From NCBI GenBank assembly GCA_019096065.1, contig JAGUCH010000001.1, forward strand, positions 14,012,001 to 14,076,000: a DNA stretch of 64,000 bases, written 5' to 3'. This DNA is from Paracyclopina nana. Lineage: Eukaryota > Arthropoda > Copepoda > Cyclopoida > Cyclopettidae. Position numbers and translations under genes: made by a program. This document shows, one piece after another, positions 3,001 to 47,537 of this stretch. Below the pieces are notes generated by a model. That model was not told the DNA's origin and did no database searches. It worked only from the letters and a program-made list of their open reading frames with translations. The number at the start of each line of letters is the position of its first letter. Within the stretch, counting starts at the first letter, position 1.

Positions 3001-4423
3001 TTTCTGATAATATTCTGCCTAACTGGAGAAACTCCAAGAAAAGATTGCATTCATGCCAAGCTGAGATTGATTTCGGAACTTTTTACGATCATAAATCTCA
3101 AAAGGGGGATTTTCCATGATCATCTTGCGCTGTTACGTTAATGGCTATTTTGCGTGCAAAGTCTCTATAAGGCAGAACTACGTAGCAGTAATGTGGTGTG
3201 TTCATCTGATTGAAAAAGCTCGGGTAGATGAACTCTCCTTTCTCGTTCTGCAACGAACGTTGAAACTAGCTGAAAATTAGAGGTTGCTACTTTGTTGCAT
3301 CAAGTCGTCGTTAGAGGAGAACCAAATCAATCATGGATATGAAAAATCAATATCAATTACCGAAGGGACATCAAAGGCATACCGCAAATTACATCATACT
3401 ATCGAGAGCATCTCGATTCGTTTCTCAATCTCAATTTTGGCTCCCTTGCACATTTGGATAAAATATGAAAATGACTTTTGGGGTGGCTTGTAAAAAAGCT
3501 TAAAAAGCATCACTGAAAGAAGTAAAGCCCCCAACTTGAATGTGTCCCCCAGTAGCAACTATTGGAAGCAATCTTGATTCAAAGTGATCGATTTTCCCTA
3601 CACTGGCTTTCTCCCTTCGACTGCACTGCAAAAATCCATTTATATCAGAAATTAGATTTGGAAATTGGCAACTACTTCCCTTATCTGCAATGTGATGGTA
3701 GGAAATGTCATTCCATCATAATGGAGAGCCGATTCCTCTCACTGTCACTCCTTGAAATGGCTGCTGCATTTCCTCTGATTCTCCCGCCATGTGATGTAAA
3801 CAAATGAAGTGACTTCTGCGAAGTCAATTCTCTTTTATTTAAAGCTTGCTCCAATGTCATGTTCAGCAGTCAATATATAATGGGAAATTACGCAGAGTGT
3901 GGCTAGGAAATGTCAGATCACAAAGGAGGAGGACTGATTTTTTCTTCCCTCCAGCTAGCATTGGAAAAGTGATCACAGCGTGTATAGTAGCACATGCACG
4001 GCCTCTGGATGATTGCGTGACCAAAGTCCATTTTCAACCAATGTTGGTGGTTCCTTTGCTGCTACGTGGCAGCAACTTCAGTCTGCCAACTGTGTCAAAA
4101 AAGTGGCTGAAATGTAGAAAGGGTGGTGTGTGTCAAAATGGCAACTAGACATTTTTCAGCACTAGTTTCACAACTCACTAAGAATTAATGAGCACGTCCT
4201 GCTTAACTAGGTTTCGAGCAAAAGCAAGGCTAAAAAAGCACCTTTTTTGCTGTTGTTCTGCAACAAGCTGCTGCCTTATCTGCTTTTCCTTCTCCTCTTG
4301 GGACAAAGACATCAAACAAGAAATGAAGCTCATCTTCATAATAAGATTTGCCAACTCCAAGAGCAGCAAGAAAAGTTATAATCCTTGTTTGCCTGCATTA
4401 ATCCCATCTTTTCTCCATTCCAG
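1..4423. other. Non-coding, probably upstream intron of the zinc-finger gene
   Basis: No convincing exon, RNA gene or repeat was seen here. The exon that starts at 4424 begins with the last base of a split codon, so a coding exon must exist further upstream. None ending in the required phase 2 with coding-like composition was recognised in this stretch. The open frames are short, low in complexity and lack domain motifs. It is most likely intron; the missing 5' exons probably lie outside the window. Confidence 0.5.
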
Positions 4424-4911
4424 CTACTATGGGCCTGGTACCTCATTGTTCTATCCAATGGGGCCGGCCGCGGCGGCGACCGGCCTGCCGCTCACAGCCC
4501 ACTCGCCTTTCGGCCCGTCGGTCACCGTTAACGGTGCCATGCCGACCATGGCCACAGCTGGGGGCGTGGGCGGCGGGGCCAGCTTCCACCACGCCCACAA
4601 CCTAGCCGCTGCTGCCGCAGCAGCCGCAGCGGCTGCCCAACAACAGCATCAACAGCAGCAGCAACACAGTGCCGTTTTTCACCTTGCCGCGCCCTCTACC
4701 GCTAAAACCTCGGTGTCTCCCTCTGCAGTGAACTTGCAACCCTCAGGCCTTGGTTCGAGCCCCAATCATTCCACAGTGAATTCCAATGCAGCTAAGTTGG
4801 GCTCGCCCGCGGCGAAAAAGTTCCGTCCCGCATTCACCAGACCGTCTCATAAGGGATCGAGATATATACCGAAACCGATCCCGCAAGAATTGGGCAACTT
4901 GAAAACTTACA
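4424..4911 (+). CDS. Zinc-finger gene exon with Ala/Gln tracts
   Basis: The acceptor is a pyrimidine run ending CAG at 4421-4423; the donor GTAAGC starts at 4912. The exon begins with the third base of a codon and ends with the first (phase 2 in, phase 1 out). It is far richer in GC than its surroundings. It encodes a Gly/Ala/Pro-rich stretch, 11 alanines, then QQQHQQQQQH, a Ser/Thr/Asn-rich linker, and a basic segment KKFRPAFTRP...SRYIPKPIPQ. That last part looks constrained; the tracts before it are typical disordered regions of transcription regulators. The long frame upstream of 4424 is intron read-through and should not be counted as coding. Confidence 0.8.
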
Positions 4912-7900
4912 GTAAGCCGACCTTTTTTCTCTCTTTCCCAGTAGCAATTTGAAGCCAGCCACCCGATCAATCAGGTTAATGGCTTTCTTTTCAGTCACTT
5001 CTAATATGTCAATCCATGGCTCTCTCTTATGTTTACGCGCGCCTTTTTAGCTCACTGATATTGCTAGGGCTCTATTGGCGTGCCTGCCAAAAAAGCAGGC
5101 CAGTTTATGGGACTCTAGATACAAGATTAGTGGGGATGCCAGCTGATTTATTCTGATTTATCGACTGTTTTGTACTGTCATTACATGATGCTGGTATATG
5201 CTCTTAGGAGTGCATTAGGGAGCATGCATCAACATACTCAGTAAAAAAATATGCTGGATGACCCACTATTATTAACAATCTGCATGCTTTGTATCTAAAA
5301 AAATGTGAAGGAGTCGTATTGACGATGCAAAGTCCCTTTTTGCCTCTTGCTTTCCCCTCAGTGAACGAGCAAAGAAAGATTACTCCCTGTCCCTTTTTTG
5401 TTGGCATCATTAGGCAACAATGTATTCATACAGAATAAGGGCTTGAATGTATTTATAGGAAATCTAACTCTTACTGCTGTTGTAGCATATTGGAAAAAAT
5501 CTACAAATATTGACCTTTCTTCTCCGTTTGAGGTGGCAGTGGTGCACTTTCTTCAGTAGATACAATACAAAATGTCCAATAATTTGAATGCAGAGTTATG
5601 TTGTAGAATGTTGTAGCATTTTTGGACCAGCTGTATTTCCTGGCTAGCAAAGTTACTTTTTGCCAGCTTGGCTGCCAAGAAAGTTCACAACTTTTCTCAT
5701 CTGATCTGAAAAAAGGCTTTTTTTCGTCGGAAACTGCAGCATCAATTCGTTATCCAGCAACTATTCTTGCTTATTTGAATTTTCAATTCTTGCGCATGAG
5801 GACAAGTCTGTTTAGTGCCAATCAGGACTGATGCAAACATCATCCAGTTCAGAGCAAAGTTTGTTCTTCACTGGTGCTAGTTTGGTAAACATGGCTGGTA
5901 GTATAACATTGGATGTAATCTCATGCTACTCTACTCTCCCTGTCCTGGTCTGGTACGTGTTTGGTATGGTGCCAATAGCCAAGTTTGAACTTTCACGATC
6001 AAATCCTGCTATAATACCAAAGGTCAGCCAGCGTTGACCCCAGATATGAAAGTTACCTTCTCAACAGATCCAGCCCTTAAATACCCTCTTAACTTGGCCT
6101 AGTTGATTAAAAATGTTGGCAACTACTTTTTTGTGTGTGATTTTTTCCCCTTTTGGTAGTTGGCCGGACTGGATTTGGCTGAGGTCCAAATTGCAAAAAG
6201 GCTTCTAGAAATTATGGGAGCCTTTCTACGTACTTCTTCAAACCCTCATGGTCCCCTCAGATGATGGAAGGAAAGGATTGATCCCAAGCTGTCATCGTTA
6301 AGAGCACTGAAGCTTGAAGATCTTGTCGAGGACACTCCGAGGAGAGTCTCTCTAGAAATTCAGCTCTAAAGCTAAGCATTATCACGCCTTTTTCCCACTG
6401 TGTCAATAGTTGGGGGTCTTTGCCAGTAGGTAAATTTGCATAAAACTTTTCTTCCTCTTTTCGATGATGGCTTTAATGGATTTGGCAAAGCAGCTAAATT
6501 GCCAACTTTTATGGCGCCATTCCTCATCATGCTACCATGTAGTAGTATATAATATATGTATAATGTTCCTGGCACCTCCGATTTCTAAGACTCAAACGGC
6601 TTTCATATATTTTTTACGCTGTACACCGCAGATTACAACAAGAAAACCCTGTGGGAAAAATATTAGGAAGGTTCACTACAAGGGGATCTTCATCATCATC
6701 CTGCTGAAACTGTGAGCTTGACATGAAAACTGGCTCATTAATTTTGCAAGGGAAAGAAATCTGTGCGCTAATAAATAACCCCTACCAGCCTCACTGTAGT
6801 TCCAAAAAGAAAGCATTCGTATTGGGCTCAGGTTTTCTGTGGGCTATTCCAATAATCCCGCTTGAGTCACTTTTCGCTCAACTGAGTAATGAGCCATTGA
6901 TATTCGTGGCCATTGAGCAACAAGCTGCTGAAAGATTGAATAATGGAGCTGCATTAAATGGTCAATCATCCACGATATATGAGTACTATAATTATAAAGG
7001 GGCATTCTAGGCCAGTTAAAACATAGAGAGGTCTCCTTTCTAGTTTAAACCATGCTCAGTGCTTTATTTTGTCGGAATTTAATACATTCGTAATACACAG
7101 AAGGAGTTTTGCGAGAAAAATGTGTACCTTTAAAAACATTAATCAATCCTCACACTAAACAGCAACAAGTAATTAGTGAGGCAGTTATCAGAAGCAGTTA
7201 GCAAACCAGTGGGTAAATACAAAGAAACTCCATAATCAGGCCCATGATGGATCAAATCACAAATGCTTTTTAAATTCGCCTTAAAAAAGATAAATTGCGT
7301 TTCTTTTTATTTAAACAACTAGATCAGCGGCACAGATTTTCCGTTGAAAGAAATCGCGGAAACGGAATTTGTGATGAGTAGAGTGGCATGCAGCTTAACA
7401 TGGATACCACCTGTTGATCTGGGGTTGACTGTCGATACACAGTTTTGCGCCGATTATTTTCATGCGATTGATTATTAGCTGTCAAGCTATAGAAAAAAAG
7501 AGCCAAAATAGCTGGTTTTGTATAACTCGTGCAATTATTTGCATGCGAGTTGTACAAAAAAGGGGCTAAAATAGCTGTTTTTTGTATAACTCCTGCAATT
7601 ATTTTCGCTTCAGTTATACAAAATAGGGGCTAAAATAGCTGATTTTTGTATAACTCGTGCAATTATTTGCATGCGAGCCATACAAAAAAGCATTATAAGC
7701 ATGGGAGTTATACAAATTAGGAGCAAAAACTGATCATTTATGTATTACTAATGCATTTATTAGCAAGGAAGTTATACAAAAAAGGGCTAAAATAGCTGTT
7801 TTTGCATAACTCCTGCAATTGTTTGCATGCGAGTTATACAAAAAATGAGCTAAAATTCGGATAACTCGTTCAATTTCTTGCATTCGAGTTATACAAAAAA

Positions 7901-31000: not shown

Positions 31001-33392
31001 CAGATCTGTATTGTTAACGGGGTGGTACAATTGATATTATGCAGGGTGGAACTGATGACCCAGGTTGCCAATAAATGCGAATGCAGGTTTTGTATCAGGA
31101 AATATACAAATGCCACATAGCATTCTCTGGTTGGAAAATGTAGCCATTCCCACCCTCTTTCATCAAATCGTATTCGCGTTGCATCTACAGTAAAAAAGGA
31201 GAAAACAGTACTATAACTGCATATAGAACGTGGTAGCTTTGGTGAATGGATAAATGAGTCTTTTTAATACATTTTCTATTTCCTAAGCATCCTATCTAGA
31301 AGATAAAGAGACAAGTAGCCATCATCATGCTATGGCACACTGGGCAATCAAAATAAGAGCTCAATGCATGCCCACACAGTGTGTCCCTCATTTGGGTAAA
31401 AACACACTGGGAGCAAGAACTAACCGGTTTTCTTATTCAATTTAGAACTTACCTAGCTAACCATCCCTGATTAATTCTCCATATTTTAATTCTCAGCTCT
31501 TGTTTGCCCACTGTGCATCTCATTGGTCTTGTGGAGATAAGTTGCATTTCGCCAAAAGCACAATGTTATCACCCCACCGCTCTTGCATGATGCGTTTGGA
31601 CTAGAAAATAGTGAATGCTTTGCATTGTTTGAAGTATGGCTAATTGTGGAAACAGCCCAGATTTTCATCCTCTTCCATTTTGGCTCGTTGAAAGCATAAA
31701 TGGAGAATGATATCAAAGGTAATGACCAGCCATTAGCCATAAAGAAAACAAAAAGCTTTTCACAAGACCTCAGCTGCAGCAAACGTGTATCCCAAAAGGA
31801 AACTCGACATTTTTGGGGCCTTCAGAGTCCTGAGAAGGCAGGATCATGGGGAAGACCCAGGGCAACATTCAAGTCAGGGAAAAATCCAGGGTCATGGAAA
31901 ATATACCTTCACTGATGGCCTGGAAAAGTTAGACTTGTAGTAGTGCTACATTGGGAAAATGGTACTTTGGAAAATTTTGGTGGGATGCAAGGCTGAAACT
32001 TTTCACTTTTGTATAAAACAGTCCCAGAGGCCATTTTTGGCACTACTTCATTACGTACAGCTTTGAACTTATCTCATTCCCAGCACTATGTGAAAGCTGG
32101 CCAAAAACAGGCCTCCACGCGCCATTTTATTTGCTGACCATTTAAAAGTCATTCTCAGCAGAAGACATAGCATTTCTGAGGTTGATGCTGAAACAATGAC
32201 AGCCATTCCCCCAAAAGGCCTATCAGAGGACCCCCTTATTTATAGGTAAAAACACTTAGCAGAGATTATGCACAATTCCCCACGGTGCAGCAGCAACATC
32301 TCCCATCTGAAACTCTTTTTCTTAAAAGGCAGTATAGTGGGACAGTGTACTATACGATATGCATGCAATTTCTGTGCGCAAAATCTGAGCTGTGTAGTAG
32401 TAAAACTGGCAGCAGAAATGTGTTTACCACCAGTTTGGGTCCGTAAACTTCAAATGCAAGGGGAAATGGGCGTAAATGGAAAATGTGGCAACTTTCCCCC
32501 TGGCCCAGATCACCTTTTAGCTAAATTATGCAGCCTCCAAATTCAGCTTTTCGCAAATTCAAGCCTTCAAAGCACTCTTTATAAATAAAATGAAACATAA
32601 GAGGACTAGGTGAACTCGCCCTTAATAAATTGGATGCACATAGCCGCAAGAAACTTTTTTCCACTCTCGCATCATCAGGAAATAGAAAGTCATAATTAAG
32701 ATAAGAAGCAAGCTTTCTTCTTCACTCTAATCCATAATTTTTGCTAGCTGGTGGCTTCGTGTCTTGGAGCCCTGAGAGGTGTTTGTAAAACAGAGGGTGA
32801 TGCAAAAAAAACCTACCTTTTTCGTGTAAGGTCTCAATGATGGATGATTTGGTGGAATAATTTGCATTCTTACAACGTACATCGATGCCTCTACTTGTTA
32901 TGGATTGCCATTATTTTACGTAAAAGATAAATTGAGCGTACAGCTCTTGCCGTTTTTGCATCACTCTGTGGCTTATCTTGGCACCAGATGACTATGATTT
33001 ATATTTTGCAGGAGCTGCTTTTGAAACTTGGGACACTCCCATCCTTTAACCGCAAAACCATGGCAGGTTGGAAAAAAGAGGCTTTCGAAATTCCCAGCTT
33101 GACTTGTCAACGACAACAGCAAAACTTGAGAAGAGACAACGCAGTTAACCAACATAGAAAATACATATTCGAACCAAATTAGAGCAAGCTTTCACCCATT
33201 TGAACAGAGAATGCTTGCCACATCTACGCTTTGAAAGGAATAATACTTTTTGAGCCTGACTTTCCACAGAGTACATTGCTATGGAAAATGCACCAATGCC
33301 TTGATAAAGCCTAATCTGTGTCCTTACAGAAAGACAGACAATGCATGTGTGTATTATTCTCATCCTGCTATCTTGATTTTCTTCAAAAAAGA
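28002..33392. other. Non-coding, downstream of the zinc-finger gene
   Basis: No supported exon or repeat element was seen. It contains a short alternating GC stretch near 30837-30848 and three CCCACTGTG words. The open frames (for example 28797-29078) have no acceptor/donor context or recognisable domains. Confidence 0.5.
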
Positions 33393-33550
33393 GGGCGTTC
33401 TCATATTGGACTTTAGCTTACCAAAACCTGATTTTGGTTAACCAAAAACTGGTTTTAGTCAAGCGCTATGTAGTGGCTACCTACCGAAAACAGGTTTTTG
33501 GTTAACCAAAATCAGGTTTTGGTAAGCTAAAGTCCAATATGAGAACGCCC
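33393..33550. mobile_element. 158-bp hairpin element with GGGCGTTCTCATATTGG ends
   Basis: GGGCGTTCTCATATTGGACT at the left is mirrored exactly at the right end. The arms of about 60 bp pair almost perfectly and iterate ACCAAAACCTG-like words (AACCAAAAACTGG, ACCAAAATCAGG). The loop is GTCAAGCGCTATG-like. It shares the outer 14-16 bp with the 209-bp family at 16799 and 24390, but none of the interior. Confidence 0.9.
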
Positions 33551-35199
33551 TAAGATCTACTCGTTGTGGGAAATATGAAAAAAACCGAGCATGGCCTCTT
33601 TTTTTGGCCTTATTTGTCTCCCCAACAAATAAAGGTTATTAATGACTTTTTTCATTCATCGGTCGCGATTTATGGATTGACCAATGCAAAGCCAAGGTAA
33701 TTGTTTGTCCGGCCTGGAAAACCTAATAATGGACTTGGTAATGGAAAAAATAGAGGCGTGTATTCTATTGAACATGTCACATATGAGAACAAACCAAGTT
33801 ATGCCACATTGCGTACACTTCTATGCTATCGCATAGTAGGGAAAAAGCATTTCTGTATCCAGGCCTAATATTTTGGTAACAAGGTATTATCGAGCGAAGC
33901 CTTAATGTAAAGAAATCAGAGCAAATAGTTTAATTCAGATAAGGCTATGCTTGAGAAAACGCTAAAAATGCACTTCAGTAGGCCAAAGTGCACTTTGATC
34001 GGATTTCTTGGATTTTCCGCTTATCACAATTAAAAGCTTTATGCAAATATTGAGGTAGCTGACGAGGGAAAAAACCTCCAATGGATGAACTAGGGCAATG
34101 TGTAAAGAAAGTGGCTCTGACTGGAAAGCTGATAATTGTTTGCACTCAGTAATGCAATGGAGTGTGGCAGTCGTTTAGTCAACCACAAAGAGATAATTCT
34201 GGTAGCAATTCCGGCAACAATTTGCTTTATTACGCAATGCCAAGGCATTTAATTCATTGTCGCGTTCATCTACTAAAATACTATGTTCTTCCTGTGGTCG
34301 CTTAGAGGTATCTCAATTTTAGTGGAGAACAGAGGGTCTTGGTCATCTGTTAAGCCCTTTTGATTTATGGAGACTTAAAAGTAGTAATTTTTCAAAATGA
34401 GTTATGGGCCAGCGAGGCCATATTCTGTAAAAGTAGCACTGCCTTTATTACTATACCAGGTATAACCTCAAGTCTTTTGCAAGCTTTTGTTTATATAAAG
34501 CTCAGCTTAGATGGGTATACACATTTGGAAAATTAAAGCCTCAATTTGGTTAACTGCCTTAATTGGAAGCAATTGAATTTGGAAAAAGCTCCCTTTAAAG
34601 TGGATATCTCAATTAAGCACCTACTAATTCTACTTAGTGACTCTAAATAAAAATGGTTTGTAAAAAAGCAACTTTTGCCATAGCCATTCTTCGGGCCAAA
34701 TTGTATGATCTCTAAGTTTCTGTTGGTGGGTGGAAGGGGCCTAAAGAGGGACATGAAAGATAAGGGGACCAAGATTTTATTGGATAAGCGTAATATGTCC
34801 CTAGAGCAAGTGGTTCAAGTATAGTAGTAGATACGCGCCATTAGTTGCCCGCATCCCTAAAGGCTTTTTCGAAAAGACTTTCGGTTACTACTGCATCATC
34901 AAGGCTAGCTGGACTTCAACTGAAGGCTGGATATTTGGCCTGGACTAGGAGGAGGCCAGATAGTAGTACGTAAATACTTTGGTCGAAGGGCCTCTGCAAA
35001 ACGTGCAGCCTTCGTTGTAGTATTCTCTATCCAGAAATACTTTGGCCTTTGGCTCGATGAACATCATCCATTTTGTTAGTCCAGAGGCAATTTTGGCAAC
35101 TTCTAAACACTTTGGGCCTGCCATCATTATCTTGTTCCAAGGATGATACCAGATAATTGTATTGTTATGTATTTGGATACACTCTCTGTATTCCCAAAG

Positions 35200-35322: not shown

Positions 35323-35727
35323 CAATATATTGGTCAGGATAAAGATATTTCATCGTCAATTAACAATTATTACAACTATTGACAAGTTTTTTGGGGAGGG
35401 GTAATTGCAGTCTTTGACAAGTTACAAGTGAAAAAAGCGTAAAGTTTCAAGTGACAATTGGAGCTATTGTTCAAGCTCAGATTCTTGAGGGCCATCGCCG
35501 ATCAGATCAATAGCTGTCGGCTTATTTGCTCAATATATTGGTCAGAATAAAGGTATTTCATCGTCAATTAACAAGCTCTTTGAATTAAAATTATTGACAA
35601 GTGTTGTGGGGAGGGGTTATTGCAGTCGTTGACAAGTTACAAGTGAAAGCTTAAAAGCGTAAAGTTTAAAGAAAGTGACAATTGGAGTTCAAGCTTTGAG
35701 ATCAATGGCTGTCGGCTTCACAGTTGG
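35323..35727. repeat. Two tandem copies of a ~200-bp unit 3' of gene A
   Basis: Copy 1 runs from CAATATATTGGTCAGGATAA at 35323 and copy 2 from CAATATATTGGTCAGAATAA at 35531. Both continue through TTTCATCGTCAATTAACAA, GGGGAGGGGT, TGACAAGTTACAAGTG and GATCAATRGCTGTCGGCTT. They differ by small indels. On the minus strand this lies just past the stop of gene A and may be in its 3' untranslated region. Confidence 0.85.
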
Positions 35728-35771: not shown

Positions 35772-36630
35772 TCAGTGGCTCAAACTAAATTCGGCCACGA
35801 CGGTTGCGCCCTCAAAATATGGCCTCTTTGGGCAAGGCTCTCCTTGATCTGGCCCTTCTTCTCTGGGCCGCTTTGCCAGATTGATCCGAAGTTGGGTCGG
35901 CCCATCCAGCTCCTGAACCGGGATCTCCAGTTCCAGATCTGAGACCTCCAGTCCCAGATTTTCGACGCCCATATCCGAGACGTCGACACCAAGATCCGAG
36001 ACGTCCAGATCTTGCACCTGGTCTTCTAGGTGCTCCGGGACAACTGGGACCTCAATTGGGATGAGGACAATCGGGTCCCTTTCTTTGACGACTTTTAATA
36101 GCTTCCCATGTCGAAGTCGCAGCCCTGATAACTTGTTCTCAAAAGCACCAGGCTCCAACCAACCGAACGGAATGCACCATTCCTGGTTCAATGGCCTCAA
36201 TCTCGCTGATTCCGAGAGTTTGGCCTCAAGACTCAGGCCTTTGGCGAGCTCCGACTCAAGATCTCGGGGCTCAACCCCCAAACTCCTCAGCTTGAGCTTG
36301 AGGCACTGCAGCAAATTCATGCCGTTGTGCTCAAACCCGACAAAGTCCAAGAAGTCCTTGGTGAAGGTCCAGGACAAGGGGCCGCCGATGCGTGTGTCAA
36401 GAAAGGGCTTGTAGGGATCAGCCCTCACGGCCCTGGAGGTTAACTCTTGGCCGATACTCTTCTTCCGGGCCTTCCCTCTCTCCGTGAGGTACTTTTCCAC
36501 CGGCGAATTTTTCGTCAACTTGGAGTTCAGGGCCATGAGGTAGGTGAAGTATGCGTACACTTCATCGATGAGGCTCCCGCTCCTGATTCGCAGGCAGCCT
36601 CGAATCACGGGGTCAAAGAACACAATTTCC
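35772..36630 (-). CDS. Gene A exon 2
   Basis: On the minus strand the acceptor CTTCTTTTCAG is directly before 36630. One base completes the split Arg codon and 286 codons follow, including the stop at 35774-35772. The last 260 bp or so recur at about 90% identity downstream of gene B (about 45615-45880). Confidence 0.8.
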
Positions 36631-37367
36631 CTGAAAAGAAGAGTAAAGAAGGTCCGTTATTGAAAGTCCTCTCAAAGATGGAAACAATCTCGCCCATTAT
36701 CTCGAATCGCGCTAATTAGTGGGCGGGGCGTTGGACGGCGGTCAATCAAACGGATGCGCGAAAGACCTCACAATCAAAAGGGCTCGGGGGGATTAATTAA
36801 GACTAATTTTTGGACGAGGAATCAACAAGTGGCTAGCTAGCGTCAGATTTCAACGTCTTTTTCAAAAACCGCAACATTATATCTATCTTTATATCTACAC
36901 GCTGCTATGAAAGACTCTATTACGTTAACAAAAAACGGTTTTAAAATCATGTGAGGTAGTCTGACTTTCTAATAAAAAGCTAGCGCTACTAAAAACTTCC
37001 AACTGGGAAGTTAGTTAATGGATCACTTTAAGAAAAGCGTTCAAATATAAAAGTCAATTGGCTCTATTTTAAAAAAAAACGCAGCCTTTCTTGAAAATCT
37101 CTAAACTGTTATTGCTGAAAATTGCTTGCAATAATTTCAAATTGAAATTCTCAAGGTTTTTTTCTAGCTACAGCGTGGAAGCCAAACTTTTTTCTAGACA
37201 CGGCTAGGAAGCCTAACTTAACACTTTCCTGAGAATATTTCTTTATATATAAAAAAGAAAAAAAACTATAGTTACCTGAATTGCGGGATGGAAGCAATTA
37301 TTATCAGCTGGTATATGGGAGCAGCCTTGGTGTTGCGATCAAAAATTCGGGAGCAGCGTTTCTCCAT
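35772..37367 (-). CDS. Gene A: unknown nuclear-type protein, member of a local two-gene family
   Basis: Two exons, 37367-37276 and 36630-35772, join in phase 2 (AG plus G, Arg) to give about 316 aa. I do not recognise the family. The start follows TTGCAATGG, with a TATA box about 80 bp upstream. Visible parts: a short N-terminal exon with a hydrophobic stretch (YQLIIIASIPQF), a mixed alpha-type region to about residue 200 (WTFTKDFLDFVGFE, then KGLSLEAKLSESARLRPL), an acidic repeat of DLDVSDLG / GVDVSDMG / GLEVSDLE type near 235-270, and a basic bipartite-like nuclear signal (LAKRPREEGP...PCPKRP) near 290. Collinear short matches and an identical first-intron position tie it to gene B. GC content is clearly above the surroundings. 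Nuclear location is inference. Confidence 0.75.
37276..37367 (-). CDS. Gene A exon 1
   Basis: ATG at 37367-37365 in the context CTTGCAATGG, 30 codons plus two bases, then donor CAG-GTAACT. The 645-bp intron that follows is GC-richer near 36720-36790. The phase agrees with exon 2. Support comes from the promoter words upstream and from the equivalent exon boundary in gene B. Confidence 0.7.
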
Positions 37368-37447
37368 TGCAAGATTTCAGATTTCCTAGGTCCGTCTGAT
37401 TTCCTTGAATTTCCAAATAGGAATGAACTTCTAAAGGGCCTCTGAGC

Positions 37448-37574
37448 TTTTTATATGATTTGGCGGGCTCGCGGTTGACCCATGAGCGCCTAGCTGATAC
37501 TCGCGCGTCATTGGCTGCTCAGATAACGCGCCTAGCTAATGCTCGCGTGTCATTGGCTGTTAAGATAACGCGCC
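37448..37574 (-). promoter_or_regulatory. Gene A promoter: TATA box, GGGTCAAC motif, two CCAAT boxes in a 42-bp tandem repeat
   Basis: Read on the minus strand: TATAAAAA (37455-37448), GGGTCAACCGC (37481-37471), and CCAAT at 37514-37510 and 37556-37552. The CCAAT boxes lie in a 42-bp unit (starting GCGCCTAGCT) repeated at 37486 and 37528, with the first bases of a third at 37570. The order and spacing suit a TATA/CCAAT promoter starting near 37420. Confidence 0.65.
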
Positions 37575-37578
37575 ACAG

Positions 37579-38600
37579 CAGACGACCTCCAGCAAGCAAA
37601 GCATCAAGCCCATCTTTACATGCAATGACCCGAAAATTTTATTTTGTATTAGATTGACTAGAGAGAGTATTTCTCAAGGATCATTTTAAGCCTAAGCTTG
37701 AAAAGCTCATGATATTTCAAGTCTTGGAAAATCGGTTTTAAAATCTCACACGATAGCAGACGCGGCCCGGCAGACGCCACCGGTTGACTTTCTGAAAGCA
37801 AACGTTTCTGAAGATATAAGGAAGCTATCATAATGAAATATAGTTTAATTTTGAATACAGTAAAAAAGTCCTCGTCTCAAGGATTATTCTAAGCTAAAGC
37901 ATGAAGACTTCGAGCGCGAGGAATTCTTAAAAACTGGGTGTCAAAATTGCACAGTCAAGCAGACGCCACCTGTTTCGGTCTGATGCGAGCATAATTTATT
38001 GGTAACTTTAACAATTCATTGTTATGAAAGATTTGAATTTATCATCATTGGAAAGCTAATTTTTCAAGGAATATTTTGATCTGAAGCTTACTGAAATCAT
38101 GCGAAAAGTAGACTTCAAAAAGAGGCTTTTAAATTGCCCGCTGAACCCGCAGCGGCTGAGCAGACTCGGCGTCACCTGTTTCTATTTTTGAAAACTTTAA
38201 GAAACAAAAAAAGAAGGCAAGAGCGTAAAATGTTACTTTAATGAAAACTCATTCGAAAACTAAAGTCTCATGGACTATTTATTATGAGCACAATAATGCC
38301 GAGGTCATGCGAACAATAGCCTCGGAAAAAGGTTTTTAAATTGCCCGCGAAACCCGCAAAGAGAGTAACGGCGGAGCAGACTATTGGCACCACAAGTTTC
38401 AATCGTCGTTAACTTTAAAAACCATTCTTATAATTTAAAATCCACGGTCCTACATATATTACTGAACATGAAATATGAGATAAAGCATTGATTTTAGCAC
38501 ATGTATATCTAAGAATACGAAGCCTCAACATAGGTTGAGTTTTCCCGCGAAAACCGCGCGCCCTCGGAAATCAGCTAGAAATGGCGTCGCAAGATTTGGC
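37579..38600. repeat. Degenerate tandem repeat, ~190-216-bp period, five to six units
   Basis: Landmark words recur in order: CTCAAGGATTATT-like, GAAGC, TTTTAAATTGCCCGC-like, then CAGACGCCACC-like. The last landmark is at 37579, 37771, 37960, 38161, 38377 and weakly near 38583. Units are well diverged. The array lies directly 5' of the gene A promoter. Confidence 0.65.
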
Positions 38601-39719
38601 TTGCTACTCTGACCAGAAACCGTCTCTCTCATTTTTTGTTAAAAATAGTTGCTTAATACGTTTGATTTTCAAGTAAAATATGAAGCTAAAATGACAAAAA
38701 CTTGGTCTCAGATAGCTTTCAGACTAATAAAATAAATGGTGTGAATGAATCAATTCAATTGTTGTATGCCGATGTACAAGCCTACTTTTGCCTCACCATC
38801 AAGCAACTTATTCCACTTAGGTTCTTTCTATGCATGTGCAAATTTGTTCGAACACTTTTTTACCTCTAAAGTCAATTCGCATCTCGTAATCAAAGCTATT
38901 TTTTTTAACGGTGAGGGCCGAATTTGAAGTATTTTGTTATACCAGAAGCGCGAAAACTTTCATTTATCATAAGGATATATGATATATTACGGCTTTATGG
39001 AAACGAAGCTTGGTGATCAAAAAGCAGCCTTATTTTTCTGATAAATACCGCATTGTTTCATTGGAGTTTCTTAGCGCAGCGAACCTAAGTTCGGCCAACC
39101 AACGATTCTTGCGGATCGGTCCGGTTTATTGTCCAATCACCGTTCAAATACATACTAGATCTAATTACAAGAAAATCTACTGTTTGACCAGCTACAAAGG
39201 TCCTGGATGAGACCGCCCAAGACTCATTCATGATTTAAAGATCCATTCCAGCAATCATCAAGCATAATACACATGATCCATATGAACTGTTCAAGGTGCT
39301 CAATGAGATGAAGAATGAACTACCTGTTGAATGAATTTCGCACATTTGCAAATTTCACACGCTCAGTTTTCAGCTAATATATTATAGAAAATTAGCGTTT
39401 TCTTCACACTGAAAGGTGTCAATGATTTCGCACCTCTGCCAAGATTCCACAGATAAGCGTTCATTCCATCAATGATAAGGTAATATAAAAAATAATACAA
39501 TTCAACTTGATCTAGCGGCGACATTGAAGAACTGCCAGCAACGCCAATTGGCTCTACTCCAATTTTGGTAGTATAAACCCGCGCATAAAGGCTTTCGTAA
39601 CATAGGGGGCCTGACTAAACAGATAGTTAGGGTAAATTGCCGCTTTGGGTAACTGAAAATTATGAAGTTGTACCATAAGTGGCAATACGATATGGGACCG
39701 AGCTCAAATATGTATTAGT
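38601..39719. other. Non-coding, nothing recognised
   Basis: Short chance frames only. The frame at 39010-39210 has no splice context or domain. Confidence 0.5.
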
Positions 39720-40395
39720 ACGATCTGACTCCTAGGACCATGTCTATCATGGTGGCAGTAATGGGTGCTAGTACCTGGTACTTCTATGGATCGTGCCTGG
39801 TACTTCCAGAACGCATCATACTTGGAACTACAAAACGCATCATCCCTGGTACTACTGCCAAGACATGGTGCTACAAAACGCATCTTACCTGGTACCACTA
39901 CCAAAACGCGCAGTACCTGGATATACTACTTATATACTACTTGGTAAGTACCTTTGCATGTATTTTACCTATTAATTAAGACTTGTTCGAAAAGTTTTGC
40001 TTCAACTTTGCTTTACAAGTCTTCACTGCACTGGCAAGTCTTGTTTGGAAAGTCTTGCATAGTCACAGTCCCCCTAGTGCAGATGTGAAAGCCAAAAAAA
40101 TCTTGAAGGAATTCTCAAAAAGGAAAAAGAAAAGAATCTGTAAATTCAGTTGTACCTGGTACGATCCGTTTTATAAATAAGTAGCACCGTGTACGATAGG
40201 TCTTGGAAGTAGTGCCAGGTACGATGCGTTTTGTAGTACCATGTACGATCGTCTTGGCAATTGTTCCAGGGACAATCCGCCGTAGTCCAAGTACGATGCA
40301 TTCTAATAGGACAAGTTAAGGTTCACCGTAGAAAAAAGCACTATCTGACTTGTAGGACAAGGTAGGGTCAGTAGTAGGACCAGGTATAGGCACCT
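39720..40395. mobile_element. Degenerate fold-back element built of ACCTGGTAC / AAAACGCATC words
   Basis: The left arm iterates TACCTGGTACTACT, GCCAAGACATGG and CTACAAAACGCATC. The right arm (about 40150-40390) carries the same words in complement, in reversed order. The middle is unrelated. The exact ends and target duplication could not be fixed. Three overlapping chance frames arise from the iteration. Confidence 0.6.
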
Positions 40396-40609
40396 TGCCA
40401 AGCTCTATCAGTCTTTATATAGTTTCAGTGGCACCCGAACATCCTCACAAAGGCAGACGGTTCGTTATTTTATGTCAACTTTCATAAAAAATAATCATAC
40501 GTAAAAAGAGAACATATTTTCAATCCGAAGGCAAAGACATCAAAATCATTACATTTTCTCGCTATCTAGCGATTAGCTGAAATCGCTTCGGAGGCCTTTG
40601 TTTCGAATA

Positions 40610-40883
40610 GCCTTAGTGGAACAACAGTTTGAAGTAGGGATAATTCCTACGCGAGATGGCGCTAGGAGCTCCATCGGGGCAGATTATTTTCGTACTTCAA
40701 GGGTTTCAGTGGGTTTTAATGGACTTTTAAGGCAAACTATATGATATTTCGACGCATCGAAGGGAGTTTGGCATTTTCAGATAATTGTAAACCGAGTTTT
40801 AGAGCATTTTTTTTCGGACTGCCCCGATGAGCGACTGAAGCGCCACTCTGTGGTAAAATACCGCAACTAAGTTCCACTAAGGC
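40610..40883. mobile_element. 274-bp inverted-repeat element, GCCTTAGTGGAAC ends, TA duplication
   Basis: TA-GCCTTAGTGGAAC at 40608-40622 is mirrored by GTTCCACTAAGGC-TA at 40871-40885. Subterminal words TGGCGCT and GCCCCGATG are also mirrored. Non-coding. The TA duplication is compatible with Tc1/mariner-type mobilisation. Confidence 0.8.
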
Positions 40884-40914
40884 TATACAGTCAGCTTATT
40901 CACTAAAAAGCATA

Positions 40915-42040
40915 GGCAATAAACTTCTCCATGTTTTTTCTAAAGACTGGTCAGCCAAATTGACAGGGAAAAAGTTGAGCTTGAAGGGGCGTTGCAAAAA
41001 CGAATTAATTTAAAAAAAAAAACTTTCAACAAAATGAAATCTTTTCAAAGGCAGATGAGAACTTGATTTTTTTAAAGTTTTCCCCTTTTTCTTGTCGCCC
41101 CTTTGCCCTGACAGACATGAAAGAACAATGTTACCTCAAGTAGTCTCTACCAGTCCTAAGCTTTTGGCCTAATTTGTTTAACGCCAAGAAAAAAACTAGT
41201 TGACTTTGTACCTCCAAAAATTGGAAGCTTCGTAACCTTTTGCTGTATCATCTTTGCATCTATTTTTGAATGGTCACAAGACAGATAACTACAATTGGCC
41301 TTAAAAGTATTGACCCGTTTCATTATATCGTCCACTCATTTCCCTGTACTACATACAGATTAACGCGTGCCTGTAAGACTCAGACCACATTGACTTGAGA
41401 GAGAACCTAACCTAGACTTCGTCAACCACCCCTAAACCTATATATTTTCTGAAAGCTTATGTCCCAAGGGTTTGTTTGGTGGTAGTTTTAAAATCCTGGC
41501 CTATCCCTCCTCATAACATAAAATCTTAAAAAACCTCTAGCTCTCTTCGGCATGCTTTTTTCACTGAACACAGGTTCAAAGACCCCTCATAAAATCAAAA
41601 GAGCTAACTTTTTTTATTTCATAAGCAAGTTGCTAGGATGACCAGGAAATGAGATAGAGAGGGACAAATTTTCAATTAGCAAAACATTTGTAACATTCTA
41701 ACATAAAGTATGGCACTCCATATCTCCTTTTCTGGACATTTTAGCGATTTGCTTATGAAATAGAAAAAGTTAGCCCTTTTGATTTTATGAGGGGTATTTG
41801 AAGCTCAACTCATCGAAAAACCACGCTGAAGAGAGCTAGAGGTTTTTTAAGATTTTATGTTATGAGGAGGGATAGGCCAGGATTTTAAAACTACCACCAA
41901 ACAAACCCTTGGGACATAAGCTTTCAGAAAATATATAGGTTTAGGGGTGGTTGACGAAGTCTAGGTTAGGTTGTCTCTCAAGTCAATGTGAGACAGTGTT
42001 GACCAGTCTTTAAGAAAGAGGAATGGAGAGGTTTAATAGG
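40915..42040. repeat. Large inverted repeat, ~1.1 kb
   Basis: An inner pair of arms, about 41388-41640 and 41740-41985, matches closely. Both carry GACTTGAGAGA..AACCTAACC, CGTCAACCACCCCTAAACC, CCCTTGGGACATAAGC (one strand) and CCTCTAGCTCTCTTC. An outer pair, AAAGACTGGTCA near 40940 and its complement near 42010, lies beyond; the left side holds about 430 bp extra between the two. The loop is about 100 bp and non-coding. Confidence 0.75.
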
Positions 42041-43516
42041 AAAGATGATCAATAGCAGAGACTTAGATTATAAGAGAAGCGAAGTAAAAATGTAAACATT
42101 CCACTTTTCTGCTACGCGTCAATAAGTTATCTTTTTCATTACTTTTATATAACCGTATACTTTCAAAAAATGCCACACTCTGCATTTTTTTGACAATAAA
42201 AATCCCATTTAGAGTAACGCCGAAATCAGCGCTATATCAGAAAGAGATTACGCATACTACCTTGGTTTCCCAACAGCCGAGATTTTCCGTCAAATTATGT
42301 GAGAGTAACCAGATTCGCAAGTTTGATCATATATATGAGAGAAGTCTCTGGGGCTGATCATAGGCAGTTCCATATGGATAGCTAATCAAAGTGGCCTTCA
42401 ACTTAGATATGCCCAAAATTCGAAAAAAAATTTTATTCACTGGTAAGCATCATGCATATTAGCAAAGAAAAATCAGGCCAATCTTTTTAAAAAAGCGGGA
42501 AAATGCTTATCAACTTCTTTACTCGTCTTCACTCTTCAAATGAGTGCTTTTGGCTGTTTAAAGAATAACTGTGGCGTTTTTTAGAGTTCTTAGCGTTTAA
42601 ACAGAAAATTGATTTATAGAAATGCAAATCATAACAATAACATTTGCTATGCAGCTTCCTTTCGGCCGTCACGGGCAAAACTTACAATGAAACGGACATT
42701 GAGACATAGCTACCAGATAAAGATAGTTTCTTAACAGTATATCTAAAAAAAGGCTGCTTTTACTAATTTCTGGCGAATTGAAATTTACCTTGTACAGTGC
42801 ACATTGGTGTGACATTTGCTGGTTTTTGTTTGTTTGTGTTTAAGTCAGCCTATAAGGCATAGAACGAAACAACCCCTGCCTTACACTTTTTAGCTAAGTC
42901 AAATGATTTTTATATGATTACAATTCGTGTAGTGAAACAATAATGATTATTAAAATTATTTTTAAGGTGAGAATTGAAGAAACTTTGGCATTCTTTTACT
43001 CAGTAAGCTCATACAGGATGCTCAAAAGTTTTTTTTTGCCTCAAATTAATTAAAACGATTTTAAAACAAATTGGTGGTCAGCTTCCGTTTACCAGTAAAT
43101 GTTTCCCGCATTTGATCGCAAGTAGGCGTTGTATTGTTATGATTTGCCTTTCTATTACGATTATTCAGAGCGTCATGCGTATCACATTTCAAAATCAGCT
43201 CTAATACAAATTACGCAAAATTAAGTGACTTTAAAAGTTGTGAGTAATCTTAAAAATTGTAGACTCCTTACCGACGTTAAGTTAGGTCTGCTTTTTTCCT
43301 GCCATTTGTTTTGTTTTCGGAATCCAAGTTCACCAGGCACTTGCTCAAAGAGCTAAAATTGACGACAGTTTTACGATTATCGTCGTACGGGTCCTTCGGT
43401 CAGCTAAAATTGCCTTTGTCGATATTTTCGGATCGGTCCCGTAATTCGGAATTTGCCCAAGTGAGTCAAGTCGGCTCACTCGACTGAGGGGCGACAGCTG
43501 AACCTGAACCTGACTA
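42041..43516. other. Non-coding, nothing recognised
   Basis: AT-rich with no supported frame or repeat; slightly GC-richer near 43,370-43,510 (ACGATTATCGTCGTACGGG). Confidence 0.5.
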
Positions 43517-44003
43517 GTGATGGAACGAGTGTCAACTCGACTCGGTAACTCGAAAGGCCAACTCGACTCGACTCGGACAACATAAGCGTTTAACTCGAAC
43601 TCGCTCGAAAATTATTTCGGGAGAGCTCGGAAAACTCGGTAGCAATTTTGGCGATCTCGAAAGTCAAACGAGCTGGAGCTACATAAGGAAAAATTTGGCC
43701 AAAGTTGAAAGTTCAAAGTGAAACTGCTATACATTCAGAAGAAAGTGATCAATTAGACTCTGAATTTAGGAAGCACATGAAAAAGGTTTTCTAGTACATT
43801 AATTTTCTAACTAAAATATTGTAAAAAATCAAATTAACACTGCAGGTTATGAAGCAATGCTTGAAACTCGAGGTAACTCGGATTTTGAAATTTGTTAACT
43901 CAACCGAGCTCGTTTTCCATTAGAGGCAACTTGAACTCGCTCGGAAAAAGTTTCGGCGACTCGGAACTCGCTCACACCCAATTTTTCCGACTCGTTCCAT
44001 CAC
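43517..44003. mobile_element. GTGATGGAACGAG inverted-repeat element with AACTCG iterations
   Basis: TA-GTGATGGAACGAG at 43515-43529 is mirrored by CTCGTTCCATCAC-TA at 43991-44005, giving 487 bp. The subterminal arms iterate ACTCGACTCGG / GAACTCGCTCG. A sister element at 56650 has identical ends and nearly the same length but iterates a different word. Non-coding. Confidence 0.9.
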
Positions 44004-44320
44004 TAAACTGGATTCCATGCGCCATCTAGCCCGGCAACTTTGCCCAGTACATTTGACATGGCTACACTACATAGGAGATCACTAATGGGCTATTTTTTGG
44101 CTTTTGGTGCAATAATTCTGAAAACTTTATTAATATGACATAATCTACGGATAAAATGGCACCCTTTCAAGCCATAAAACCATATGCAACTCACACAAAT
44201 TTCCAAGCTTTTCATTACTGAAACCAATTTTTTCTAACCTGGCTCCGCTGATCAGCCAATGAAATTGCCGCTCGTGATCACGTGACAAGTTTCGCGCGCG
44301 ACAGTTTTTCCAAATATACT

Positions 44321-44878
44321 CAGAGTTATCAACGGTGGTCGGAAACGACCAAAGTGGTCGTTTTTGACTGACTTTGGTCGGAAAAAAAATTGGTGGTCGG
44401 TGGTCGGAAAAGTGGTCGTATTTGAAACTGACCAAAACTAGCTAAAAATAGGCACTTTTAGACAAAAAAGGACCAAAATTCCAATTTAAAATTGCACATT
44501 TTTTCCTTTGGGAAGTAATCTAAAATATATAAACTTAGCAAATAAGATTGGTCTCAATAGAAATATGAAATTAGATGAGAAACAGCTTCTCATGAGTAAG
44601 GCTACTTTTTTGCTCAGAGATGCGACATCAAAAAAAAATTCTGATTTCTTGTAAACATTTTCCTAAGTGACATATTTTTTACAGCAAACATTGCTCAAAA
44701 AGACTTTGCAGATAAAAAAAGGACATTTTATGCATAAATTGTGTGAGTTTTGGCCGTTTTTGTGTAGGTGGTCGGAAAAGTGGTCGTTTTTGAAATAGCC
44801 TGAAAAATGGTGGTCGCAAAAGTGGTCGTTTTTGGCCAAAAAGGTGGTCGGAAGCCTAAAAATCTGTTGATAACTCTG
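44321..44878. mobile_element. Non-autonomous hAT element with 8-bp target duplication
   Basis: CAGAGTTATCAAC at 44321-44333 is mirrored by GTTGATAACTCTG at 44866-44878. AATATACT lies on both sides (44313-44320 and 44879-44886), an exact 8-bp target duplication. CAG-type ends plus an 8-bp duplication are the hallmark of hAT elements. Both ends carry many GTGGTCG / GTGGTCGTTTTTG iterations. The 558-bp inside holds no transposase; the open frames at 44145-44435 and 44728-45039 are artefacts of the iterations. Confidence 0.93.
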
Positions 44879-45492
44879 AATATACTTGCCCTAAAAGCGC
44901 CATCTAGCGAAAAAGTTTGTCCCTCCAATGGCTTATTGTAATTTAATAATTTTCTAAATCTAATATAACCGCCGGACCAGCAGCAAGGAAATATTAGCGG
45001 GCTTTTACTTTTAGAAAAATTATCTGGTAGCCCTGCCACCAGACTCTTAGTCCGTTAGTCGTGAATCCTAGAGCCCGTCAAAGTCATTTATTTGAAGAAA
45101 AATTAGAAAATCATTGTTTGTGAAATTGTGATCGGTAACGTCAAACAAGTTAACTAGGACTGCGAGTTTTAAAGTTGCGAAGAGTGCGAAGTTAAGACTG
45201 TAATAATATTTTTTTTGTAATTTTATTTCGGATTTTAATGGCAGTAAAGGAATGGACAATCAATCGCCAAAATAGCTGAGTTTCTCATTTGCTCAGTTTT
45301 CTGTCCAAGTGAGCATAGCGGTAAACCTTCCATCACTTCTCGAGGTCGCGTCAAGTTATGTGGCTCCTTCAAACTTCACTCGGGATCATCTGGAATTAGT
45401 CAAAATAAAAAAGGTAAGTTCAATTAGTCCCTTTTCAATTAGAGATGCAATTCATTACCTAACGACTTGGCCCACTGGTTTCGTAGGCCGAT

Positions 45493-45903
45493 TTAATCAT
45501 CAATCGTGACTTGGCTCACTTCCGACCGAACCACGATTTGAAGGCCGGCCCAAGTTGAAATCCGTAACCAGCAAGGTTTGGCTTGAACAGCCAGAACCGG
45601 GGCTTCCAGTTTGCTGAATTCGACCACGACGGTTGCGTCCTCAAAAGATGGCCTCTTTGGGCAAGGCTCTCCTTGATCTGGCCCTTCGTCTCTGGGCCGC
45701 TTTGCTAGATTGATCCGAAGTTGGGCTGGCCCATCCAGCTCCTGAACCGGGATCTCCAGTTCCAGATCTGAGACCTCCAATCCCAGACCTTATCCATCCA
45801 AAGCTGAGACGTCGACTCCAAGATCCGAGACGTCCAGATCTTGTACCGAGTCTTCTTACTGCTCCAGCATCTCATCCGCGTCTTAGACGTCCTCTTCTCG
45901 AAG
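45493..45903 (-). pseudogene. Decayed copy of gene A's 3' coding end, behind gene B
   Basis: From about 45900 down to 45600 the minus strand is about 90% identical by eye to gene A's acidic repeat and nuclear-signal region. In the gene A frame there are three stops (45885-45883, 45858-45856, 45792-45790). Downstream of the last stop the frame stays open for 95 codons (45780-45493), reading EVSDLELEIPVQELDGPAQL and KRPRDEGP, then diverges after the VVEF equivalent. Gene B's own stop precedes this region. It could still be used as an alternative terminal exon, but no good acceptor in frame was found. Confidence 0.65.
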
Positions 45904-46087
45904 TCACCAGGCTTCGTCCCCAAGTAGGTCCTGGACCGACGGCATCACCACTTGGCGGTTATCCAAAATTTGGCGCAATGTTGGATCTTCTTCCGCGATC
46001 TCGGCAACCCCATCCAAGAGCTGATGAATTTCGTCAATGGGTTCTCCATCCGCTGCATCGACTATGCCTGCTTCTACTTGTTCATTT
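45904..46087 (-). CDS. Gene B exon 4 (last)
   Basis: The acceptor CTATTTTTCAG precedes 46087. It encodes RNEQVEAGIVDAADGEPIDE and continues acidic to DLLGDEAW, then TGA. The stop is directly followed by the gene A-like relic, so the original end of gene B may have been replaced by it. Confidence 0.75.
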
Positions 46088-47391
46088 CTGAAAAATAGCA
46101 AAATGTAAGTTAAACTACTTGATTTATATGAAAAGAATTGCTATTTACCTGTCGAATCTATCCCTCAGCTCAGGCATTGCATCAGCATTTAGCGGCTGAT
46201 TACCCTGGAAATCCTCACCGCCCACTCCTGGTTGATGGTTTATGCCACCAGCATTGGCAAATCCTGGTCTTTCTTGGTCATCATGTTCTTCTAGCCACGC
46301 CTCCGTCAACACCTGATCAAGCTGATGTTGCCATTCGTCACCTAGGGTTTCCAAAGGCGCGGCGTTCAAGATCTCCAGGAAATCATCGTAGCCGTGCTGA
46401 TCGATCCTTGCCCGTTTATTCGCCGGTTCGTCCTGCCCAGGTTGCTCCGCTCTTGGATCATCCGCCTGATTGGCCACCGCTGCCACCTCCTCAACAGCTT
46501 CGTGTGGCTGCTCCCTATGAGGATTTGCCAAGACCTCTTGGGCAGCGTTCTGGCCTCTGTCCTGGAAAAGCTCCGCCAAGCATTCCTCAGGGAGCCCAAT
46601 TTCCTCAAGGATTGGCTTCAAGTCGCAGTCCTTGCTCAGTTTGACGTCGGCTTTTAGACCTTCCCGAGCTTGGCCAACGAGATCCCGAATGAAACGGTTC
46701 TGCTCCCTGGCAGTCCTCTGGATTGCCTCATAAAAATCGGCATCGCGTTGAGGATCGAAGTTCACGAGGTTGATGAACTTCTGGGTGAACCCCCATTGGT
46801 TTGCAACCGACTGCAAAAGAAAGGTGAAACTTGTGCTTTATTTTAAGTAAAATGTTGATGTTTTTTATTTTTATTTTTCTAGTGTAGCATGATGCGTTGT
46901 AAAGCTGGAAAGCTTACCGTTTTCGTGGTGAAAATGGCCCTTTCGTAGTCATAGCCATTGCAACTGCGGGCCGCCCTGGATGCGCTGGCGAAGGTCATGC
47001 CCAGAGCAGCCTTGCGCTTGGCCCTATACGTATCCAGGGGCATGTTTTCATCATTGGACAGCCTGATGAGATGTTTTATGAGCCCCCAACCCTTGGCCAA
47101 GTTCGTCTTGTCGGGAAATTGAATCCTGTTTCCCTCCGTCCATTGAACCAGGGGCCTGGAATTAAAAGAAGTAAGTAAAGAGTTGAGAATTATCAATGCC
47201 AATCATATTGAATAACATTACCTCATTTTAGATGCCGCCATTAAGAGGAACGCGGTCAATGTTACCATCGAGCTCTCGGCGAATACCGTGGAGATGACGT
47301 CCACCGAGAGCTCAATGTTACCATTTTGTTGCAGCCAGTCCAAATGGGACAGGCTTTCAAAAGCCTTGGTCTTTTGGTTCTTCGGCTCCAT
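45904..47391 (-). CDS. Gene B: unknown nuclear-type protein, paralog of gene A
   Basis: Four exons, 47391-47222, 47155-46918, 46810-46149 and 46087-45904, join in phases 2, 0 and 2 and give about 417 aa ending with TGA. I do not recognise the family. Short introns with standard ends support the model. Features: N-terminal MEPKNQKTKAFESLSHLDWL, a hydrophobic stretch (MVTLTAFLLMAAS), a basic region (YRAKRKAALG), WGFTQKFINLVNFD near 140, then GLKADVKLSKDCDLKPI. A long acidic, Glu/Asp-rich C-terminal half follows, with a basic patch ANKRARID near 255 as a possible nuclear signal. The WGFTQKFINLVNFD and GLKADVKLS..DLKPI segments align with WTFTKDFLDFVGFE and GLSLEAKLS..RLRPL of gene A in the same order, and the first intron splits an Arg codon in the same phase in both. 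Confidence 0.8.
46149..46810 (-). CDS. Gene B exon 3
   Basis: The acceptor TTCTTTTGCAG precedes 46810; the donor GACAG-GTAAAT follows 46149. It holds 220 codons in one open frame. The first third (SVANQWGFTQKFINLVNFD and on) matches gene A in order; the rest is acidic with the basic patch ANKRARID. The 168-codon frame on the opposite strand here is its shadow. Confidence 0.85.
46918..47155 (-). CDS. Gene B exon 2
   Basis: The acceptor TTTTAATTCCAG precedes 47155 and the donor ACG-GTAAGC follows 46918. It encodes PLVQWTEGNRIQFPDKTNLA through YERAIFTTKT. Arg- and Lys-rich in the middle. No known domain. Confidence 0.8.
47222..47391 (-). CDS. Gene B exon 1
   Basis: ATG at 47391-47389 in the context CGTTGCAATGG; 56 codons plus two bases; donor ATGAG-GTAATG. 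The TATA box lies about 65 bp upstream. The hydrophobic end of this exon corresponds to the hydrophobic end of gene A exon 1. Confidence 0.78.
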
Positions 47392-47453
47392 TGCAACGTG
47401 TAGTTTGTATCAGCAACAAGTGTTGAATGATCTACCAACTGCGAATCAGCTGC

Positions 47454-47537
47454 TTTATAGGTGGATCTGACCGGCGAGAGCGCTCTATCTACGGGTCAAC
47501 TCCGCGAAACCCACGTAGGGTCGCACGGGTCAACCGC
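47454..47537 (-). promoter_or_regulatory. Gene B promoter: TATA box and two GGGTCAAC-type motifs
   Basis: On the minus strand CTATAAAGC lies at 47460-47454, about 65 bp before the ATG. The plus-strand words GGGTCAAC at 47493-47500 and GGGTCAACCGC at 47527-47537 match, in opposite orientation, the single GGGTCAACCGC of the gene A promoter. The segment is GC-rich relative to its surroundings. Confidence 0.55.

Follow-up and report, generated by a model that had tools for sequence, protein, structure and literature searches.

Two protein-coding genes, A and B, lie on the minus strand of a 64,000-nucleotide stretch of the genome of the copepod Paracyclopina nana (C1:14012001-14076000, from here on the window; the genome comprises 92 Mb in 10 contigs). 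They have a relative, gene C, on contig C7. In the following, we describe the structures of the three genes, their relationship to each other and their likeness to the DNA-binding domain of the ETS family, and we weigh what their products may do. Positions given without a contig or locus name count from the first letter of the window.

Gene structures and family relationship

Gene A consists of two coding exons. The first (37276..37367, minus strand; 92 nt) is an open frame that ends at a GT donor and covers helix 1 of an ETS-like domain, while the second (35772..36630, minus strand), which begins behind an AG acceptor and is open over 285 codons, holds the rest of this domain, a family-specific helical block and an acidic tail. 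Gene B has four coding exons on the same strand, all of them open frames: exon 1 (47222..47391; 170 nt) encodes the N-terminus and helix 1, exon 2 (46918..47155) strands 1-2, helix 2, an insert, the recognition helix and strand 3, exon 3 (46149..46810) strand 4, the family-specific helical block and an acidic region, and exon 4 (45904..46087) the acidic C-terminus. Joined at GT-AG borders, the conceptual products comprise 316 residues for A and 417 for B. Gene C has two exons (L013 5046-4871 and 4810-4027, minus strand) and encodes 319 residues. The first intron of A, the first intron of B and the sole intron of C are all in phase 2 and share one alignment column (28 of alignment A6); the codon they split encodes Arg in A and B and Lys in C.

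All three proteins have acidic C-terminal parts, in which Asp and Glu stand against Lys and Arg at 24/13 in A, 48/12 in B and 27/4 in C. Signals of the nuclear-import type were recognized by eye in two of them, a bipartite one in A (KRP...PKRP; 35820..35873, minus strand) and a monopartite one in B (PANKRARID; 46400..46426, minus strand). Upstream, A and B have core promoters of the same design, each with a TATAAA box and a TCATTC initiator that start 29 nt apart (37421..37455 for A and 47425..47459 for B, both minus strand); the initiator begins 59 nt before the start codon in A and 39 nt before it in B. The pattern TATAWA-N23-TCAKTY, defined together with its spacing after sight of both sites, occurs in the 64 kb only at these two places, where 0.13 sites are expected and 1 of 100 shuffles reaches at least two. 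No TATA-initiator pair was found within the first 160 nt upstream of gene C. The region upstream of C (L013 5100-5900) contains repeat units of the GTGCGGTATTTAGTA type in both orientations.

Genome searches with the single proteins as queries connect the three genes. Protein A finds C at an E-value of 6e-6 and B only at 0.3, protein B finds C at 3.4e-7 and A at 0.0043, and with protein C as query the values are 3.3e-4 for A and 0.024 for B. Profiles built from two members recover the third far above chance: A obtains 50.1 bits with the B+C profile (best of 2000 shuffles 4.2), and the other two combinations reach 60.3 and 87.4 bits (14.2 and 10.0), with the reservation that the rows were taken from the joint alignment, which slightly helps the scores. 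Likewise, a family hidden Markov model (HMM) run on the open reading frames (ORFs) of the window matches exon 1 of A at 4.1e-5, and exons 1 and 3 of B at 1.2e-6 and 8.7e-31, the matched protein being part of the profile in each case. A and B are thus related beyond chance, mainly via C. A fourth member was not found by the genome search with C, whose four matches are all C itself, A or B, and the family profile yielded no additional copy among the 1704 ORFs of the window; more distant members may exist in the genome. A viral origin was likewise considered and rejected: among the 64 pattern matches that the family alignment produced in a single scan of viral_contigs, there was no relative.

Much of this agrees with a preliminary description of the window. 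Its exons and junctions for A and B were recovered exactly, with open frames and GT-AG borders, its shared phase-2 intron within an Arg codon falls into the identical alignment column in both genes, and its acidic regions and Lys/Arg-Pro signals of the nuclear type are present as well. The view that A and B are ancient duplicates of low identity whose blocks are collinear is borne out, the link between them running mostly by way of C. Two points need correction. Instead of the single extra intron ascribed to B there are two further ones, of which intron 2 does fall where the alignable part of A is continuous; and the family, taken to have two members, includes C as a third, besides a decayed copy of the gene A tail that lies behind B.

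Likeness to the ETS domain

As transcription factors of animals, the ETS proteins are well conserved; they are characterized by a winged helix-turn-helix of three helices and a four-stranded sheet and by binding to GGA(A/T) DNA. As a reference, we used 14 ETS genes from the P. nana genome itself, which were grouped from 21 of 22 profile-search rows, with exons joined by eye; row L035 (19.8 bits, with stops inside) was left out of this set. The genome has 12 canonical ETS genes, and the 27 positions that at least 11 of them share were counted as ETS-conserved.

Several comparisons lead from the family to ETS. Pfam, with a curated cut-off of 26.9 bits for Ets (PF00178), names Ets alone for protein C (20.5 bits, E 6.1e-4, or 22.5 bits, E 1.4e-4, when trimmed) and for protein B (14.5 bits, E 0.046), all of these scores being under the cut-off, and no other domain at E<=10 in any of the three proteins. 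When a trimmed A+B+C profile was searched against 177,635 PDB sequences at a threshold of E<=10, all 44 matches were ETS proteins, although 42 of them have E-values above 0.1, the 44 entries go back to about 14 proteins when sorted by molecule name, and the best value (0.0053) is a total over three stretches, of which one lies outside the ETS domain of the protein concerned. With the untrimmed profile there were 10 matches, again all ETS (E 0.31 to 1.6), and with reversed sequences as a control a single one, to a ribosomal protein.

A profile of the ETS genes of the own genome assigns 22.5 bits to C and 19.6 to B, compared with 10.3 and 10.9 for the best of 1000 shuffles, and exon 2 of B is its sole significant match among the 1704 ORFs of the window (E 2.2e-4; next 0.96). 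In the reverse direction, the family HMM scores the 14 own ETS domains at 6.0-15.1 bits, and 10 of them exceed the best of 1000 shuffles (8.7). Aligned profile to profile with hhalign, the family and the own ETS genes reach a probability of 93.5% and a score of 45.8 (best of 200 column shuffles 21.3). The probability is 56.1% when C is left out, 77.4% without B and 96.0% without A; single members gave 90.7% for C and 24.3% for B. In a tree, A, B and C form a single branch beside the other ETS genes with a support of 98/96.

The blocks shared by A and B, described earlier as matching no known family, correspond in Pfam (for B and C), profiles, hhalign and alignment to the ETS DNA-binding domain. 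Helix 1 corresponds to the hydrophobic end of exon 1, strand 1 to the block behind the intron (LVQW in B) and strand 4 to WTFT/WGFT, while SRxxR, which is diagnostic of the recognition helix, was missing from the earlier list. The order of elements (helix 1, strands 1-2, helix 2, recognition helix, strands 3-4) is that of ETS factors such as ETV6, GABPA, ELF5, EHF and ETS1. The likeness extends to LxxFLL in B, the W after helix 1, WG or WA in helix 2, SRxxR and, in B and C, WGF in strand 4, and it continues beyond strand 4, reaching the C-terminal helix of ETS. Unlike in ETS factors, a family-specific helical block follows the domain, and the intron separates helix 1 from strand 1, a place at which the 14 own ETS domain pieces are unbroken.

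The recognition-helix motif reads SRAVR in A (36423..36437, minus strand) and SRAAR in B (46966..46980, minus strand) as well as in C, so that S, R, A and R are invariant across all three. In a study of Etv1 (PMC4447949), the invariant helix 3 arginines Arg-391 and Arg-394 recognize GG within the GGA core, the invariant helix 3 tyrosine Tyr-395 reads the A, and changes of Lys-379, Tyr-396, Tyr-397 or Lys-404 abolished DNA binding. The alignment places the two SRxxR arginines of the family at the GG-reading positions, whereas the adenine-reading tyrosine that follows is replaced by Ala in A, Ser in B and Asn in C.

Between helix 2 and helix 3, the proteins carry an insert (36465..36539 in A and 47008..47067 in B, both minus strand and with approximate bounds). 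From the helix-2 aromatic residue, a W in B, to SRxxR we count 40 residues in A, 36 in B and 35 in C, as opposed to 15-17 in all 14 own ETS genes; the whole ETS domain is given as about 85 residues (PMC2789578). Because of this difference in spacing, we take the turn to have been enlarged by about 20 residues, as a shared and derived feature of A, B and C. In the insert regions of A, B and C, Lys and Arg number 8, 6 and 8, against 3, 3 and 6 Asp and Glu.

Structure prediction was run with AlphaFold2 (AF2) on the exon-2 pieces of A and C, that is, lacking helix 1, with four short rows as input. The model of C has the order strand-strand-helix-helix-helix-strand-strand expected for ETS, with an extra helix within the turn, at low confidence (predicted local distance difference test, pLDDT, 48.9; predicted template modelling score, pTM, 0.33). 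In the model of A (pLDDT 69.8, pTM 0.61), strands 3-4 are unformed and the order is only partly that of ETS.

A number of results weigh against ETS descent or against a working ETS-like domain. Pfam matches A to no family and leaves B and C below its Ets cut-off. The own-genome ETS profile gives A -1.5 bits, below its best shuffle (5.3), for which reason we rejected A as an ETS member by its own match; with B and C added to that profile, A reaches 3.0 bits (best shuffle 6.0), and hhalign of A alone against the own ETS genes gives 0.2%. Searching the PDB with phmmer, whole C and the N-terminal halves of B and A obtained 1, 1 and 2 matches, none of them ETS and all with E-values above 0.5. Under the family HMM, 4 of the 14 own ETS domains fail to surpass the best shuffle. 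The label-shuffle test of the tree was not significant (103/500), a test that three rows cannot pass, and owing to this and to the very long branches the placement in the tree is unreliable. Both AF2 models are weak, and with these weak models Foldseek found no PDB match at E<=0.001 for either A or C: the best were a calmodulin-bound channel domain entry for A (E 1.1) and a PadR winged helix for C (0.22), and ETS is absent among all 48 matches for A and among the 50 of 152 listed for C; we take the models to speak neither for nor against an ETS fold. Of the 27 ETS-conserved positions, B keeps 12, C 11 and A just 3, namely the serine and both arginines of SRxxR. Lastly, the counterparts of Etv1 Lys-379, Tyr-396, Tyr-397 and Lys-404 are mostly absent. 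The exceptions are Tyr-396, which C has in the alignment, and a Lys of B at the place of Lys-379; the latter is our own reading, counted from the helix-2 Trp, and the MAFFT alignment has a gap there. As these residues were essential for binding in Etv1, DNA binding may have been lost.

Taken at the level of profiles, homology to ETS is found for B, C and the family as a whole and not for A alone. B and C are, on this evidence, direct ETS relatives, while for A we infer ETS ancestry through B and C only, since it has the intron in common with them, reaches 50.1 bits under the B+C profile and retrieves C directly as a query. We consider it very probable that A, B and C are a clade of strongly diverged ETS descendants whose domain has the ETS order of elements with an enlarged turn.

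Two further pairs of ETS genes were seen in the genome. Two diverged genes on contig C7 (C7:5752811-5752981 and C7:5765026-5765202; L027 and L030), about 12 kb apart, form a local drifting pair. Like A, B and C, they have drifted domains with 13 and 10 of the 27 conserved positions, but unlike them they show normal spacing (17 and 15 residues), score above the Pfam cut-off and fall outside the A, B and C branch of the tree. The ETS domains at C3:4248278-4248517 and C2:9900756-9900995 (L014 and L015) are near-identical; they are presumably of the GABP-alpha type, and the respective gene seems to have been duplicated.

Possible DNA binding and rival explanations

If the ETS reading is correct, the N-terminal half of the proteins would fold into a winged helix-turn-helix with its elements in the ETS order given above. 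About 20 residues, many of them Lys and Arg, would have been added to its turn between helices 2 and 3, and its recognition helix would have retained the GG-reading arginines and lost the A-reading tyrosine. The A and B proteins would enter the nucleus by means of their Lys/Arg-Pro signals, bind DNA at an altered or relaxed core that still contains GG, as suggested by the two retained base-reading arginines, and influence transcription through their acidic C-terminal tails. The fold itself and each of these steps, from import into the nucleus to DNA binding and activation, we infer. With this in mind, A, B and C are probably nuclear DNA-binding regulators with altered specificity, and for the step of specific DNA binding as such the balance tips mildly in favour. 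It is conceivable, though we rather doubt it, that the extra basic helix in the turn replaces the lost Tyr and Lys contacts to DNA and that a new specificity was thereby built on the GG-reading pair of arginines.

The main alternative opposes only the DNA-binding step and agrees with ETS descent: the three could be ETS-derived proteins that have given up specific DNA binding and act on protein partners, for instance as dominant inhibitors that use the remaining fold. The loss of the adenine-reading tyrosine and of most phosphate contacts speaks for it (contacts as given in PMC4447949), as do the few conserved positions left in A. Yet both base-reading arginines are present in A, B and C, and the only positions kept in A are those of SRxxR, a pattern that is hard to explain without a DNA-facing role. 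Lys and Arg also outnumber Asp and Glu in the insert region of each. We regard the loss of binding as a serious but distinctly less likely account than its retention.

Two other explanations dispute the descent itself. ETS and heat shock factor (HSF) domains belong to one fold class, the winged helix-turn-helix, and the resemblance to ETS could have arisen by convergence within another winged-helix family, be it HSF-like, PadR-like or other. In accordance with such a view, a diverged ETS gene of the own genome weakly matches two loci that we take to be HSF (E 0.009 and 0.015), and PadR winged helices top the Foldseek list of the C model, if non-significantly. However, the PDB profile matches ETS only, Pfam names Ets alone for B and C and no HSF for A, B or C at E<=10, and the single piece presumed to be HSF obtains 0.3 bits with the family HMM, below the best shuffle, as opposed to 6.0-15.1 bits for the 14 own ETS domains. 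HSF ancestry was rejected on the grounds of this score, and convergence in general appears very improbable. Just as improbable is the notion that gene A stands outside the family, as an unrelated single-copy or decaying gene whose blocks resemble those of B by chance. It would account for the missing ETS match of A itself and for the E-value of 0.3 at which A finds B directly, but A finds C at 6e-6, the intron column and phase are shared, the spacing of TATA box and initiator is identical to that of B, SRxxR is in register, and exon 2 has stayed open over its 285 codons.

Surroundings of the genes and meaning of the family

Behind gene B lies a decayed copy of the gene A tail (45614..45865, minus strand), 252 nt long, 90% identical to 35785-36036 and interrupted by two in-frame stops; gene A as a genome query matches it at 82% identity. 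By count, the copy is in frame with the stop codon of B, and it has kept the bipartite import-type signal of A. Over 83 codons, it differs from the A tail by 14 non-synonymous changes, two of which are the stops, and 7 synonymous ones. Its identity is far above that of the A and B domains, and so either the A and B loci have exchanged sequence or an additional A-like copy has decayed behind B.

Between the two genes, the window contains a 605-bp foldback element (41386-41990) with nested inverted arms, of which the 175-nt arms are 98% complementary. At least 89 pieces of it, at 75-100% identity and on both strands, occur in the genome (40 of 436 candidates scored), and it is probably a non-autonomous transposon of the foldback or miniature inverted-repeat transposable element (MITE) type. 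In the 3' flank of gene A (35369-35648), a 65-nt unit is repeated 215 nt apart at 91%, probably by local duplication, and farther along an inverted repeat (33392-33551) has 65-nt arms that are 97% complementary and 30 nt apart. On the plus strand, there are a polyAla/polyGln ORF (4182-4949) and C2H2/CCHC-like ORFs (26786-27145 and 27476-27958). Their Pfam matches are weak and all sub-cut-off (best E 0.0023), and these pieces may belong to one zinc-finger gene with large introns. They come from a Pfam scan that covered 10 of the 413 neighbouring ORFs; a single, arbitrary 2-kb stretch gave nothing.

TTAGG repeats, which are associated with arthropods, are found at four of the six contig ends inspected; at the start of contig 1 (C1:1-1500; L043), TTAGG is replaced by a CTGGC-type repeat array.

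In the open-licence literature of PMC, which covers the field in part and does not by itself prove absence, we found no such family. A, B and C would best be classed as an ETS-derived variant and not as canonical ETS members, because they depart from these in the tyrosine behind SRxxR, in the length of the turn and in scoring below the Pfam cut-off. If our reading is true, the clade would show how far an ETS domain can drift, and whether two residues suffice as the core of a rebuilt specificity. Gene A also illustrates how a seemingly orphan gene, which has no match itself, becomes placeable via its paralogues. A helix-turn-helix rebuilt with an extra basic helix, which we hold to be the less likely case, would provide P. 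nana with a lineage-specific set of nuclear regulators that evolve fast and recognize DNA in a new way.

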